Shown here: positions 982-10,062 of the stretch, one piece after another
Layout of the letters: each line of letters opens with the position of its first letter
How positions within the stretch are numbered: position 1 is the first letter of the stretch
Origin: Oceanospirillum linum
GTDB taxonomy: Bacteria > Pseudomonadota > Gammaproteobacteria > Pseudomonadales > Halomonadaceae
Reading direction: 5' to 3'
Length of the DNA stretch: 64,000 bases
NCBI RefSeq assembly: GCF_001995095.2
Contig: NZ_MTSD02000001.1
Coordinates: 62,001-126,000 of the forward strand
Notes under the pieces: model-generated
Told to the model about the DNA's origin: nothing
The model's database searches: none
The model's input: the letters and a program-made list of their open reading frames with translations, nothing else
Translations under genes and position numbers: made by a program

Positions 982-2748
982 ATGAAGCGTTCACCAGCAG
1001 AAGTACTGAAAACACCAAAAGTACTAAAGGCATCGGCAGCACCGAACGTTTCAGAAGCGCCACCTCTGTCTGAGGCCGGAAATTCAAGCAGCAGCCAGCC
1101 AACAGTCTGCAGACGTCGTCAACAGCACCTGACGCTTAAACGCCTGATTTTACTGCTGGCACTTTCCTCTGCAACCGTCACATTACTCAATAGTTTCTAT
1201 GCCAGCTATCAGGTACAGAAAGAACAACTGATTCAGCACGAGCTGGACAGTAATTTTGCCTATGCCACTAAGCTTGCCGCCACCACGAATAACTTCCTGC
1301 GTTCAGCCCAACAGCAACTGGCTTATGCTGCTGGCGAGCTGCAATACAGGATGGATGATCATAACTACCTGTTAAGACAAGCTGACCGCCTGCGTCTGCA
1401 GACAGACAGTTTTAACTCTGTGGTGATCACAGGCGCAGATGGCACGGTACTGGCCACCTCCCCGAATACACTGGAAATTATAGGTGAGAAGCTGAGGTCT
1501 GAAGGCGCCATTGAAGCTCTGAAAAAGCAAATTCCTCTGATCAGCGCACCCTATATCTCGGCAACAGGGCGATTACTGGTTGTTATATCTCAGCCACTGT
1601 TTGATCGTCAGGGCAGATATATTGGCTATATCGGGGGCTCACTCTATCTGAAAGAGCGTAGTATTCTTAACGATATGCTCGGCACTCACTATTATGAAGA
1701 TGGCTCTTACCTCTATGTGGTGGATAAAAATCAGCGCCTGCTCTATCACCCCAATAAAAGCCGTATTGGAGACGTTGTTACAGGCAACCGGGTCATCAGA
1801 CAGGTTATGAGCGGTAACGGTGGGTCGTTAAGTGTTATTAACAGCGAGGGAATAGAGATGCTGGCAGGGTTTGCGCCGGTTACGATCTCCCATTGGGGTA
1901 TCATTGCTCAACGCCCTCTGAAAGCAACGTTAGCCTCTCTGAACGACGTAGTCGCTCAGGTGCTTTACCGGTCACTGCCCATCACTATCATCACCTTTTT
2001 TACAATTTGGCTACTGGCAAGAATGATTGCCCGGCCACTGAAACAGTTAGCCGATACTGCCCGCACTATGGATCAACCACAGACCCATGAGCGACTGCAC
2101 CGAATTCGCTCCTGGTACTTTGAAAGCGGGGAACTTAAACATGCTATGGAGAAAGGCTTTAGCCTGCTGCAGCAACAGATAGGCCAGCTGCGACATGCCG
2201 CTTCAACAGACCCTCTGACGGGTGTTTATAATCGGCGCAGCCTGGATATTTTTCTGTCCCAACTGCAAGCGGATCATACCGAATTCACTATTCTGGCTCT
2301 GGATATTGATCACTTCAAACAGGTCAATGACCACTTTGGCCATGAAGCGGGTGACAAAGCCCTGACCAGTCTGACACAGAAGATGTCTGAACTATCCAGG
2401 GATGGCGATATTATCGCCCGCACCGGAGGGGAAGAGTTTGTGCTTGTATTACCATCGACCACGCAGAAACAAGCCCTAACGATTGCAGAACGCCTGAGAA
2501 TCAGTGTAGCCCAGATGCAAATTAATATTGTTGGTTCAATCAAAGTTTCGGTGGGTATTGCCAGTTCCCGTAAGAATACCTATACCCCGAAACAGGTATT
2601 GAAGCAGGCAGATCAGGCCCTCTATCAGGCAAAACACCGGGGGCGTAATCGCTGCGTAGTTTACAGGGAGCCCTCCTACGAAAAGTCCTGCACCACTGAG
2701 GAAAGCCGTACCTCACAGGCTGAGCACAACACCACAGAAGAAGCCTGA
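982..2748 (+). CDS. Membrane-bound diguanylate cyclase with periplasmic Cache-type sensor
   Basis: This 588-residue protein makes cyclic di-GMP from two GTP. It has a ~50-residue polar N-terminal tail, a first membrane helix near residues 53-72, a ~250-residue periplasmic region resembling a double Cache sensor, and a second membrane helix near 330-350. A HAMP-like linker leads into a C-terminal GGDEF domain. The catalytic motif is GGEEF at residues 482-486, so the enzyme should be active. An RDGD inhibitory site at 473-476, five residues before it, implies product feedback. The long basic N-terminal tail before the first helix is unusual. The ATG at 982 follows GAGGGAA. The ligand of the sensor is unknown. 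It converges with the DUF3833 gene 16 bases away. Confidence 0.9.
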   Translation: MKRSPAEVLKTPKVLKASAAPNVSEAPPLSEAGNSSSSQPTVCRRRQQHLTLKRLILLLALSSATVTLLNSFYASYQVQKEQLIQHELDSNFAYATKLAATTNNFLRSAQQQLAYAAGELQYRMDDHNYLLRQADRLRLQTDSFNSVVITGADGTVLATSPNTLEIIGEKLRSEGAIEALKKQIPLISAPYISATGRLLVVISQPLFDRQGRYIGYIGGSLYLKERSILNDMLGTHYYEDGSYLYVVDKNQRLLYHPNKSRIGDVVTGNRVIRQVMSGNGGSLSVINSEGIEMLAGFAPVTISHWGIIAQRPLKATLASLNDVVAQVLYRSLPITIITFFTIWLLARMIARPLKQLADTARTMDQPQTHERLHRIRSWYFESGELKHAMEKGFSLLQQQIGQLRHAASTDPLTGVYNRRSLDIFLSQLQADHTEFTILALDIDHFKQVNDHFGHEAGDKALTSLTQKMSELSRDGDIIARTGGEEFVLVLPSTTQKQALTIAERLRISVAQMQINIVGSIKVSVGIASSRKNTYTPKQVLKQADQALYQAKHRGRNRCVVYREPSYEKSCTTEESRTSQAEHNTTEEA

Positions 2749-6078: not shown

Positions 6079-6149
6079 AAAATTCACTTTAGGGGCCGGC
6101 AGAGAACAAACACTATGACACATCACACTGCTCCGGCCCCGGTTCAGTG

Positions 6150-6312
6150 CGTTGTGTCACAGGTCTCGTCAGGCCGCATTGCAGATCAATACGGCTGTTT
6201 ACACCATGGTCATGAGGACCAACTATGTTGATGTAAACCTCTGTCATATTCGTCTGGGATATTTTCAGAGAGAAAATATCAGACAAGAAGAGCGACTACT
6301 CCCCCGGGACGA
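6150..6312 (-). promoter_or_regulatory. Candidate yybP-ykoY manganese riboswitch
   Basis: Read on the minus strand, the leader holds GGGGGAGTAGTCGC near its 5' end, a hairpin with a 9-bp AT-rich stem, then ACATCAACATAG, a small GGTC/GACC hairpin inside a GTTTACA/TGTAAAC helix, and finally CTGACGAGACCTG. These are the conserved pieces of the yybP-ykoY class in the right order: the GGGGAGUAG box, the CAACAUA loop and the GA-GACC loop that dock to bind Mn2+. It lies 70-230 bases before a gene of the family most often controlled by this class. The call comes from motif reading by eye; a covariance search was not run. Confidence 0.8.
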
Positions 6313-6381
6313 GAAGAATACTAGCAGAACCCGGAATTTAATCCAGCACTATCAATGACAACAAGCTAAAAGAACGACCTG

Positions 6382-7054
6382 CTATTTATCGTCAAAATAG
6401 CGTTTGTAATCAAAACCTTGCACCCAATCTGGTTTAAACACCATAAGAGAGCTGAGCAGCATACCGTTCACCACAGCTTCCGGAGGCAGAATAACCGGCA
6501 GGAAGAGAAAGTACTCACCTGAAATCCGGGCAAAATCATAAGCTGTAGACCCCAGCCAAAGCACGGCCATCAAAGACAGCCCGGAAGCCAGAGCTGTCAG
6601 TGCACTACCGAAAAAACAACCCACAAAAAGAATAACAAAAAAGTTATCCGGCAGACGCTCATCTGCCCAACGGTAAATAAAGTAACTTGCAGCGACAGGA
6701 ACAACCGCTGAGGTCATAATATTAACCCCCCAGTAACTCAACCGGAGCCTTTCCTGTCCAGGTCAGTCCTATCAGGGCCAACACACTGGCCATTAAAGCA
6801 AAGGGCCAACGAAACATCACCGTTAATGTCATCGACATCAGAAAATGCAGGCTGACCAAGGGTGTAATATCCGCCTTAAGCTGCCAGAGCAGTGTCACAA
6901 AAACAGTAGCGCCTAAAAAAAGGTGCTGAAACTGAGTATCTGCCAGCAGTTTTTTCCACTCGGCGTAGCGGACAGCCTGAAAAAGCGCCATGACCGCTGC
7001 AATATTTGCAACCCAGACCCAAAGGCCTTCAATTTCAGTAGAGGAGAAGTTCAT
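6382..7054 (-). pseudogene. CbiM-like energy-coupling factor permease (COG3235), frameshifted
   Basis: Two overlapping frames, 7054-6722 and 6741-6382, give the N- and C-terminal halves of one ~220-residue multi-helix membrane protein of the CbiM-like COG3235 family. The first frame ends in VELLGG-stop. The second would read WGVNIMTSAVVP, and removing one G from the six-G run (complement of C6726-C6731) joins them as ELLGVNIMTS. The rest of both halves looks intact, with about six helices in total. This is either a one-base sequencing error, a recent inactivation, or slippage in the G tract. The family is thought to move metal ions or vitamins; the substrate is unknown. SD GGAAG precedes ATG 7054. 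It follows the outer-membrane gene at 84 bases and may share its transcript. Confidence 0.75.
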
Positions 7055-7138: not shown

Positions 7139-8278
7139 TCAGAACGCTTCACCTACCTGGAAATAGACATTGAAGCCATCTGCTTCCGCATCACCCAGTG
7201 CGTCACTATAGCCAAAATCCAGGCGCAGATTAACCCGCTGCTTCTGGCCCAGAGCATAACGACCACCAACCCCCAGAGCGTACTTCAATTCAGAAGCACG
7301 AACCTGGTCGAAGGATGGGAATACATCGCCAAAGCCACTAAAGACCGCCATACCCCATTTATCTGTCAAAATCCGACGCCACTCAACCTGGCTGGATAAT
7401 GCCAGCTCATCACGATAGCGATCCTGCAGTAACCCCCGAATGCTTTGAGCACCACCTACTGCAGGCATCTGGTCATAGGGAACATGACCACTTGCCGCTT
7501 TAATCTTGCCCTGAATGGCCAATACGGACCGAGAATTAAGAGGGATAAAGCGCCGATGCTCCAAACCAAAAAGATTAAAGTTATAGTCACTACCCCATGA
7601 TGTATCAAAGGTCAGAAATTCTGCCTCGCTAAATACCCCTTTTTGACTGTAAAAGCTGTTATCCCGGGTATCACGCTTTAACTGAAAACCTAAACCAAGC
7701 CGCGTAGACTGCATTTTCTCATTATTACCGGCCAGATAATCCTTAAGCTCTCTTGCGTCAGAAAGATCGGTATACTTGCGGTGTTGAAGGCTCATTGCAG
7801 GGCCAAAATAACTATCTTTTAATATGCGCCAGCCCGCCATAAAGTTAAGGCGGACGAACTCAGCTTCGTAGCTTTCTTCAGAACCCGTGCGACTGAGAGA
7901 ACCGATACCGTGGCTGGTAGAAACACTTTTACCGAAAGCCACGGACGGCTCCAGTAACATAGAACCCTCACTACGATACAAGCTGGAACTCAGCGCCAGC
8001 ATCACCTGTCCTTTTTGCGATAAGTAGCCAAAAGCACTCACTGTATCTTTTTTATTCTCACCCGCCTCCGGGTTTGGTATCGCCCAGATCACAGCAGCAC
8101 CGCCAGCAAACCCTGTATCCGGTGTACTGAACGCAACAGGGATAATAATCCGCTCCGCCTTCACCTGAGTGCTCATTAATACGCATGACAAACCAATCAT
8201 CATGACAAGACAAAAGGTCAAAAGACGGAAAGGCTCTTTTGGAATAATCACAGCAATATCCTTGGGATGGACTGACAT
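7139..8278 (-). CDS. BamA/Omp85-type outer-membrane barrel protein without POTRA domains
   Basis: This 379-residue protein has an N-terminal signal region (hydrophobic stretch near residues 18-40, cut after QVKAE or nearby). The rest consists of alternating amphipathic strands typical of the bacterial surface antigen (Omp85) barrel. A GGAQSIRGL segment near residue 280 matches the conserved (V/I)RG motif of the barrel's sixth loop, and the protein ends in Phe as outer-membrane proteins usually do. There is no room for POTRA repeats, so it is a barrel-only member rather than BamA or TamA. Function is unknown. It lies upstream of the CbiM-like gene on the same strand, so a link to nutrient uptake is possible but unproven. 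Confidence 0.75.
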   Translation of the reverse strand: MSVHPKDIAVIIPKEPFRLLTFCLVMMIGLSCVLMSTQVKAERIIIPVAFSTPDTGFAGGAAVIWAIPNPEAGENKKDTVSAFGYLSQKGQVMLALSSSLYRSEGSMLLEPSVAFGKSVSTSHGIGSLSRTGSEESYEAEFVRLNFMAGWRILKDSYFGPAMSLQHRKYTDLSDARELKDYLAGNNEKMQSTRLGLGFQLKRDTRDNSFYSQKGVFSEAEFLTFDTSWGSDYNFNLFGLEHRRFIPLNSRSVLAIQGKIKAASGHVPYDQMPAVGGAQSIRGLLQDRYRDELALSSQVEWRRILTDKWGMAVFSGFGDVFPSFDQVRASELKYALGVGGRYALGQKQRVNLRLDFGYSDALGDAEADGFNVYFQVGEAF

Positions 8279-8547
8279 TTAAACAGCAACACTCTCATTA
8301 CGAGTGCCGCTATTCTATTGGTGCATAGCAGCGGTTAAAAGATAAAAATTAACAGTCGTCACAGGAGGACTGACTCCGCAGCCCGTCGCTGATGTGATCT
8401 AAATACAAGCAAAGAAACGCCAGAGACAAAAAATAAAAGCAGGAAACAGATAAGTCAGGGAAAAGTGACAAAAGGAGAAGGAAGAACAAAGAACAAAAGC
8501 CGTTACGGCTCCGCAAAAAAACTAAGTCCTAATGACATATTTCGGGC

Positions 8548-8573
8548 AAAAAAAGCCTCCAATCCTTGGAGGC
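8548..8573 (-). terminator. Terminator of the Rsm-like sRNA
   Basis: An 8-bp perfect stem (GCCTCCAA/TTGGAGGC) with a 3-base GGA loop is followed by seven T on the minus strand. It is a textbook intrinsic terminator, and its loop doubles as a potential CsrA site. Confidence 0.88.
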
Positions 8574-8642
8574 TCTCTACATACGATAACAGTCCTTTCC
8601 ATGGACTCGCTTCCATTGCGCTTTTCTACATTTCCCCGAGAG
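8548..8642 (-). ncRNA. Rsm/CsrB-type small RNA that would titrate CsrA/RsmA
   Basis: The ~95-base region reads on the minus strand as a chain of hairpins with GGA in their loops: CGC-AATGGAA-GCG, AGTCC-ATGGAAA-GGACT, and the terminator with loop GGA. Another GGGGAAA lies near the 5' end, and CTCTC/GAGAG can close the whole structure. Six GGA triplets in under 100 bases plus a strong terminator is the pattern of RsmY/RsmZ/CsrB RNAs, which sequester the translational regulator CsrA/RsmA. A -10-like TAGAAT lies at 8653-8648. A GacA-type palindrome at 8698-8715 sits about 55 bases before the inferred start. No convincing protein is encoded here. The exact 5' end is inferred. Confidence 0.75.
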
Positions 8643-8697
8643 ACTTCATTCTAAAGCACCCTCAACGAACACAACAGAAGCGAACTGCCTTTTTGCT

Positions 8698-8715
8698 TGT
8701 AAGAGATATCCTACA
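8698..8715. promoter_or_regulatory. GacA/UvrY-type upstream activating site
   Basis: The 18-bp sequence TGTAAGAGATATCCTACA matches the GacA consensus TGTAAG-N6-CTTACA with one mismatch. In pseudomonads and relatives this element occurs almost only before rsm sRNA genes. Its position just upstream of the GGA-rich RNA at 8548-8642 makes both calls support each other. Confidence 0.75.
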
Positions 8716-8731
8716 AAAGGCTTAACTCTGA

Positions 8732-9586
8732 TCAGTTAAAAACGACCGTTTTATTCTCATGCACCAGAACACGATCCTCAATATGCCAACGCAAACCACG
8801 AGCCAGAACCGCTTTCTCAACATCTTTACCCAGGCGCACCATATCTTCGATAGTGTGCCGGTGGCTTACCCGTTGAATATCCTGGTCAATAATAGGCCCC
8901 GCATCCAGCTCTGCTGTCACATAATGGCAGGTAGCACCAATCAGTTTCACACCGCGCTCATAGGCCTGGTGGTAAGGCTTCGCACCAGCAAAAGACGGCA
9001 AAAAGCTGTGGTGAATATTGATGACACGTCCGGCATATTTCTGACATATATTCGGAGGCAGAATCTGCATATAGCGCGCAAGGACAACACAGTCAGCATT
9101 CGCCTCTTCAACCAGTTGCTCAACCTTATCGAAGGATGCCTGCTTGTTATTCTTATCCACCGGAACGTAGTGATACGGAATACCATGCCATTCCACCAGA
9201 TCACGAAAATCCTCATGATTGGAGATCACGCAGGGGATTTCAATCTTCAGCTCACCACTCTGCCAGCGATGCAACAGATCCACCAGGCAGTGCGACTCTT
9301 TACTGGCCATCAGCACCACACGCTTTTTCTGATCAGAATCTGAAATAAACCAATCCATTTCAAATTCACGGGCGATCGGCGAAAAAGCCGTACGGAACTC
9401 TTCCAGATCAAAGGGAACAGTATCAGCCCGAATCTCATGACGCATAAAGAACCAGTTCGCCATCCGGTCAGAGTGATGGCTGGCTTCGGTAATCCAGCCG
9501 CCATACATCGCCAGAAAGTTACTGACTTTTGCCACAATGCCTACCCGGTCAGGGCAGGAGATTACTAAGGTATATGTCCGTTCCAT
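8732..9586 (-). CDS. purU: Formyltetrahydrofolate deformylase PurU
   Basis: The enzyme hydrolyses 10-formyl-tetrahydrofolate to formate and tetrahydrofolate, balancing one-carbon units for purine synthesis. The 284-residue protein has an N-terminal ACT domain (TYTLVISCPDRVGIV) and a C-terminal formyl-transferase fold. The catalytic signature is present in NIHHSFLPSF, followed by GAKPYHQAYERG and the conserved Asp in ELDAGPII. The ATG at 9586 is chosen; the longer frame would need a TTG at 9595. The sRNA with its own promoter region lies just beyond the stop codon. Confidence 0.95.
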   Translation of the reverse strand: MERTYTLVISCPDRVGIVAKVSNFLAMYGGWITEASHHSDRMANWFFMRHEIRADTVPFDLEEFRTAFSPIAREFEMDWFISDSDQKKRVVLMASKESHCLVDLLHRWQSGELKIEIPCVISNHEDFRDLVEWHGIPYHYVPVDKNNKQASFDKVEQLVEEANADCVVLARYMQILPPNICQKYAGRVINIHHSFLPSFAGAKPYHQAYERGVKLIGATCHYVTAELDAGPIIDQDIQRVSHRHTIEDMVRLGKDVEKAVLARGLRWHIEDRVLVHENKTVVFN

Positions 9587-10062
9587 ATCTACCAATCAAC
9601 TCATTCAGTTCAGGGCGCCCGATTGGTTATTATCAAGGGGCTACAGCGGCCGCCGCCTAACCAGTTGATTCAACAACCCTTTAGACGGCAATTCGTAAAA
9701 ATTTCGGAGCCGGTATTCTACACCAAAAGACCTCTTTTGCACCTGCGCAAGGCAAAACCTGCTATACAGACTACAGCTTTAACCATCATGTCTGTCCAGT
9801 GCGTTTAAATCACATACCGGCAGTATAAAAAGAGTGCTAACCTGAATAGTATCACTTCAAGAAAAACGAAAACGCACCAAAAAAGGCCAAAGTAAAATTA
9901 AAATGCACATGGCGCACCAAAATAGATCACAGGAAATTCCAACCTTGTGCATAAAGCATCGCAACATGCTGAATTCTGGTGCTTTCCTGCCGGTAAAGTT
10001 TCTCGGTATTCTGGCCTGTTTTGTGCATCATGGGCATACCCCTTATCACAGGACAGCGCATA
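9587..10062. other. Intergenic stretch, no gene seen
   Basis: This 476-base gap separates the divergent purU and EAL genes. Both short open frames inside it have atypical composition and no recognisable product. It is AT-rich around 9790-9900 and should hold the promoters of both neighbours. I see no convincing operator or RNA element. Confidence 0.5.

Follow-up and report, generated by a model that had tools for sequence, protein, structure and literature searches.

The DNA between purU and an Omp85-superfamily gene in the Oceanospirillum genome studied here very probably encodes a CsrA-sponge RNA. We propose, with a probability of about 0.9, that it is a stand-alone small RNA (sRNA) gene of about 95 nt belonging to the CsrA-sequestering functional class of RsmX/Y/Z and CsrB/C. 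The locus lies within the 64-kb stretch of DNA that was analysed (the window) and, read on the minus strand from 8715 to 8548, it comprises in order a palindrome, a spacer, the hexamer TAGAAT, about 95 nt of putative RNA, and a G+C-rich stem-loop running into seven T; the probable start falls at about 8641-8646 and the end is the T run (Table 1). The promoter-like element and the intrinsic terminator suggest an independent intergenic gene, which would be transcribed on its own from the minus strand.

Table 1. Features of the candidate sRNA locus, its neighbours and the second RNA of the same genome (window positions unless another contig is given).
Feature	Position	Strand	Remarks
Candidate sRNA body	8548-8646	minus	about 95-99 nt; intergenic, unannotated
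GacA/UvrY-type palindrome	8698-8715		plus-strand reading TGTAAGAGATATCCTACA; minus-strand reading TGTAGGATATCTCTTACA
Putative -10 box TAGAAT	8648-8653	minus	from the sequence and the genus alignment; -35 region weak
Invariant 5' block CTCTCGGGGAAATGTAGAAAAGCGCAATGGA	8612-8642	minus	31 nt; carries the first GGA (8635-8633)
Hairpin 1, CGC-AAUGGAA-GCG	8608-8620	minus	drawn on the alignment
Hairpin 2, AGUCC-AUGGAAA-GGACU	8591-8607	minus	drawn on the alignment
Terminator, GCCUCCA-AGGAU-UGGAGGC + U7	8548-8573	minus	ANGGA loop; drawn on the alignment
purU (formyltetrahydrofolate deformylase, by domains)	8732-9595	minus	upstream neighbour, outside the RNA
Omp85-superfamily gene	7139-8278	minus	downstream neighbour, outside the RNA
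Second, longer CsrB-like RNA	G000:C220, about 62.34-62.54 kb; L014, 1518-1133	minus (L014)	box at 62711-62728 of C220

A GacA/UvrY palindrome is the usual upstream element of CsrA-sequestering sRNAs in gammaproteobacteria, and the conserved box of this locus is of that type: TGTAAGAGATATCCTACA differs from TGTAAGN6CTTACA at one position, and its centre lies about 65 nt upstream of the likely start. The -10 box reads TACTAT, TATGAT and TATTCT in three relatives, and a consensus scan of the locus returned no sigma-70 promoter. The stem-loop at the end of the RNA is absent from the list of a mechanical terminator scan, which gives another terminator at 8512-8496; our reading is that it was missed because its stem extends into the T tract. 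An earlier note on this DNA had described six GGA triplets in under 100 bases, several of them in hairpin loops, a strong terminator, and TGTAAG-N6-CCTACA about 55 bases before the start, all of it between an outer-membrane gene and purU. This description holds: the minus strand has the six triplets within 99 nt, three of them in loops kept in all six species compared, the stem-loop GCCTCCA-AGGAT-TGGAGGC with seven T is read at the locus, the near edge of the palindrome is about 52-57 nt from the start, and the flanking genes are purU upstream and an Omp85-superfamily gene downstream.

Four of the six GGA belong to ANGGA motifs, three placed in the drawn hairpin loops and one in a stem arm, so that the RNA is predicted to display several loop-borne ANGGA sites, that of hairpin 1 less securely. 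Four GGA, namely the three in loops and one near the 5' end, are kept in 6/6 species, and the two in stem arms are absent from two or three of the six. Among 20000 dinucleotide shuffles, 451 have at least as many GGA (six) and 114 at least as many ANGGA (four); over both strands of the window, six GGA per 99 nt occur at ten places and four ANGGA at two, the sRNA locus included in each count. The GGA count taken alone is thus weak evidence, and the fold energy of the sRNA has a z of -1.99. The locus stands above chance because the box, the GGA loops and the terminator coincide and are conserved across the genus.

A DNA search of 58 genomes matched seven, the six Oceanospirillum genomes (own included) and G016, in which the match (27 nt, E 5.6e-4) covers the T run behind a hairpin with the following bases and was rejected. 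A 19-base sRNA probe found O. sediminis, O. maris DSM 6286, O. multiglobuliferum, O. beijerinckii DSM 7166 and O. sanctuarii; a further match in a Firmicutes MAG, where the remaining RNA is missing, was taken as chance. In the six-species alignment the invariant columns number 31/31 in the 5' block, 13/18 in the box, 23/26 in the terminator and 14/24 in hairpin 2, and mean pairwise identity is 28% in the DNA preceding the box, 47% across the spacer and 44% beyond the terminator. The box, a -10-like element, the GGA hairpins and the terminator are thus found in 6/6 Oceanospirillum genomes within flanking DNA that has drifted; the GGA loops and the palindrome, on whose conservation in close relatives the earlier note had staked its reading, are kept in every one. 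A covariance model built from the genus scores 124 bits at the locus and finds no further match in its own genome at E <= 0.05. Of 41 genomes, six have a match at this threshold. Three are all the Oceanospirillum in the sample, and the weak hits in the other three (E 0.017-0.047) resemble ordinary terminators when read, so that no convincing homologue outside Oceanospirillum is found among them.

Hairpin 2 is supported by compensatory changes: all of its five pairs are formed in the six species (100% of cells), three of the five show double changes, and the loop is ANGGA in 6/6. With only six sequences in the analysis, the covariation score is matched by 4/500 shuffles; the structure is less clearly set off from shuffles by double-change pairs (23/500) and by further pair types (103/500). 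The drawn structure has 96.9% of cells paired vs 25-40% in slid controls. The terminator loop varies by species between AAGGA, ACGGA and AUGGA, N being A, C or U. Hairpin 1, which takes the form CGCA-AUGGA-UGCG in three relatives, has no covariation support because three of its pairs are invariant and the fourth is unpaired in 3/6; in the minimum-energy fold of the window sequence it is displaced, and its GGA has an unpaired probability of 0.38. The first GGA (GGGGAAA) can occupy the loop of an RNAalifold hairpin with never-varying pairs, and its unpaired probability ranges from 0.32 to 0.82 across species. Single-sequence folds of hairpins 1 and 2 disagree among species, and the structure therefore rests on the alignment. 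As a separate observation on the 5' block (8612-8642), an AUG-UAG follows immediately after GGGGAA.

The pattern of variation also bears on what the RNA may do. CsrA binding requires only short GGA sites, and hairpin 2 varies around its loop as would be expected on that account. The 31-nt block exceeds the apparent need of CsrA titration, and an extra constraint on the 5' end is therefore possible: the block, CUCUCGGGGAAAUGUAGAAAAGCGCAAUGGA, may have a second function as a base-pairing seed or as the site of another protein, which would make the RNA both a sponge and a second regulator specific to Oceanospirillum, an extension that we consider unlikely. The same invariance beyond the need of GGA binding would suit an Hfq-type base-pairing sRNA under GacA control in which the GGA motifs are incidental, but a stem of hairpin 2 that covaries around a constant ANGGA loop, and a terminator loop whose N varies around a constant A-GGA, argue against that reading and leave it very improbable.

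A comparably slight chance is given to the reading that the RNA is not free at all and acts in cis on the downstream Omp85-type gene, as its leader or as an attenuator. The RNA and this gene share one strand, and the terminator lies about 270 bases ahead of the Omp85 start codon. The neighbourhood in relatives tells against it. On the upstream side, purU, recognised by its Formyl_trans_N domain and an ACT domain slightly under the cut-off, precedes the RNA in 5/5 named relatives, with an extra frame, CBS-domain-like on reading, between the two in four of them. On the downstream side, which can be judged in four relatives (the available stretch of the fifth, L044, was too short and was left out), two of the four (L046 and L049) have an Omp85-like gene next to the RNA, L048 has a cbiM-like one, and in L045 the adjoining frame is different. 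The downstream gene thus varies while the RNA stays intact, which favours a free gene over a leader; attenuators are not known to carry GacA-type boxes or ANGGA loops. Least credible is a degenerating copy or unexpressed remnant, to which one might turn since no consensus promoter was found, when a 5' block invariant at 31/31 and a box at 13/18 stand in flanks and spacer of 28-47% mean identity.

For the assignment of the sRNA to a known family, the earlier note had called it Rsm/CsrB-type and pointed to the Rfam models; the designation stands for function and layout and is limited to these because no Rfam Rsm/Csr model matches. With all 4227 Rfam families run over the whole window at gathering score, only a Mn riboswitch elsewhere passes, and in the region 8300-8900 no Csr/Rsm family appears at E <= 10: RsmY (RF00195), PrrB_RsmZ (RF00166) and CsrB (RF00018) are all unlisted, and the sRNA reaches the gathering threshold of none of them. 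Weak matches of Phe_leader, ctRNA_p42d and GEBRO at the locus were rejected as terminator-like or chance. The single RsmY match in the own genome at E <= 1 lies away from the locus and scores 14.2 bits vs a cut-off of 57. RF00195 and RF00166 each pass their cut-offs in one of 58 relatives, in both cases G056, which is not an Oceanospirillum, and at its RsmY locus the Oceanospirillum model gives an E of 0.22. RsmY matches at E <= 1 occur in 47/58 relatives; we set them aside as evidence because many cover only the 3' end of the model and 9/14 control genomes match as well.

By description, one close likeness is to RsmX, RsmY and RsmZ of Pseudomonas, RNAs of about 100 nt with GGA in hairpin loops and a GacA box near the promoter; the sRNA shares this layout, but it has no detectable sequence relation to RsmY or RsmZ and a different neighbour, purU. 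CsrB and CsrC of E. coli resemble it as CsrA-titrating RNAs with an upstream inverted repeat. CsrB is longer, has more GGA and carries its box further upstream than the sRNA does, a layout found in a second Oceanospirillum RNA described below. In published reports, a palindrome is noted upstream of rsmX, rsmY and rsmZ (PMC2375449), and UvrY of E. coli binds to an inverted repeat of 18 nt located a long way upstream of the csrB and csrC promoters (PMC4682653). Marinomonas mediterranea is described with two predicted GacA-box sRNAs bearing ANGGA motifs, PpoS/PpoR-dependent by RNA-Seq, their levels falling in mutants of the kinase and the regulator (PMC8523701); its CsrB and CsrC are like the Oceanospirillum pair in box, ANGGA and terminator, a likeness of description with no sequence relation claimed. 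Other reports describe CsrR2, a small CsrA-related RNA predicted in Alcanivorax dieselolei that leaves six GGA unpaired and has a promoter of its own (PMC9788540), in a different neighbourhood (ferredoxin), and the newly described Csr sRNAs Pf1, Pf2 and Pf3 of Pseudoalteromonas fuliginea (PMC11882849, PMC9927453), likewise from a marine genus that is not among the model organisms; both are likened here by description. The prediction of sRNAs from ANGGA motifs and a terminator is an established method (PMC5568370).

The protein partners of such an RNA are present in the genome. The only CsrA match is a 62-aa frame close to solved CsrA proteins such as 1y00. A 216-aa response regulator scores 305.4 bits against the NCBIfam UvrY/SirA/GacA equivalog (cut-off 280), the TGA counted inside this match being the frame's own stop, and we read the frame after it as uvrC. 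A 983-aa hybrid kinase has BarA as its best match, aligning with residues 1-564 of the 918-residue E. coli protein at 36% identity and with residues 667-888 at 39%, and at 714 bits it stays under the NCBIfam BarA cut-off of 890, so that it is called GacS/BarA-like here; on our reading, its neighbouring frame resembles cysM. In Pseudomonas, gacS adjoins cysM. The genome thus encodes CsrA, a GacA equivalog and a GacS-like kinase that stays below the cut-off of the BarA model, in keeping with the GacS/GacA pathway that the earlier note had proposed. Its appeal to adjacent genes of cyclic di-GMP synthesis and breakdown carries less, and we do not take the nearby EAL gene as specific evidence of c-di-GMP control. 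As a side observation, csrA of O. sanctuarii contains CTCTCAGGGAAATGTATAA at its 3' end (L043, G004; 1583-1601, minus strand), and this sequence is close to the 5' block. An origin of the sRNA from the csrA 3' end was dropped because, in this comparison of O. sanctuarii with the own genome, the end of the own csrA has no similar stretch.

Activation by GacS/GacA and sequestration of CsrA are established parts of Csr/Rsm regulation, and a corresponding route is proposed for Oceanospirillum. The GacS/BarA-type kinase would phosphorylate GacA, and phosphorylated GacA would bind the palindrome, whose centre lies about 65 nt before the start, and switch on transcription from the promoter next to it. 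The four conserved GGA sites, three of them presented as loop ANGGA, would then bind CsrA dimers, and the sRNA would draw CsrA away from its mRNA targets, acting alongside a second, longer CsrB-like RNA. By analogy with known CsrA systems, motility, biofilm and carbon control may be among the processes affected.

The second RNA emerged from a scan of the own genome in which sites within one mismatch of TGTAAGN6CTTACA were read by eye with 250 bases on each side. Seven such sites exist vs three for the reversed control, and among them one besides the sRNA box precedes a GGA-rich region. The candidate is about 200 nt long with 16 GGA and a terminator, its box, similar to that of the sRNA, starts about 187 nt before the placed RNA start, and it scores 32.9 bits against PrrB_RsmZ, below the cut-off of 44. 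A DNA search finds it in 6/6 Oceanospirillum, with short matches only in three, and a GacA-type box lies upstream of it in all six. It occurs as two tandem copies in O. sanctuarii and has about 25 GGA in O. beijerinckii, in which the RNA start was not placed, and in O. multiglobuliferum.

The box was also assessed as a predictor. The degenerate pattern TGTANGANATNTCNTACA has two sites in the 3.78-Mb own genome, each upstream of a GGA-rich RNA, a count that is partly circular because the pattern was drawn from Oceanospirillum boxes, some of which it nonetheless misses. It occurs in 28/61 genomes of the family vs 0 for the reversed-pattern control. Other genera offer a fairer test, and 43 of 46 sites outside the genus were examined for GGA density within 450 nt. 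A density of six or more GGA per 100 nt is reached at 18/43 sites vs 2/91 background segments, and at least four ANGGA at 7/43 vs 2/91, the box sites being scored on the better of two sides and the background segments on one. More than half of these sites have no GGA-rich neighbour; at some of the positive ones, on reading, the GGA-dense stretch begins about 160-200 nt past the box. Three loci from other genera of the family (L079, L090 and L093) show shorter GGA-rich RNAs nearer a GacA-type box, and the Oceanospirillum sRNA model gives no match to them at E <= 1. In practice, searching with the degenerate box is a way to locate further RNAs of this kind in related genera.

The CsrA-sponge class is well known, and our understanding of the pathway is unchanged by a further member. 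For the marine genus Oceanospirillum, the sRNA would fill in the missing RNA component of the Gac/Csr pathway, and with its longer partner it would form a two-RNA system in each of the six genomes. Rfam-based annotation would miss both RNAs of the window genome because both fall below the Rfam thresholds. The papers searched combine Oceanospirillum with CsrB nowhere and with CsrA once (PMC8262984), and none yielded a Csr RNA for the genus.

Two further observations concern the window downstream of the Omp85-superfamily gene. The Mn riboswitch (RF00080, 64.4 bits; 6090-6316, minus strand) overlaps the start assigned mechanically to a frame at 6126-5500, which encodes a membrane protein that is MntP-like on reading. 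A CbiM homologue (6382-7054, minus strand) occupies two frames, 6722-7054 and 6382-6741, and the matching stretch is a single open frame in L046, L048 and L049.
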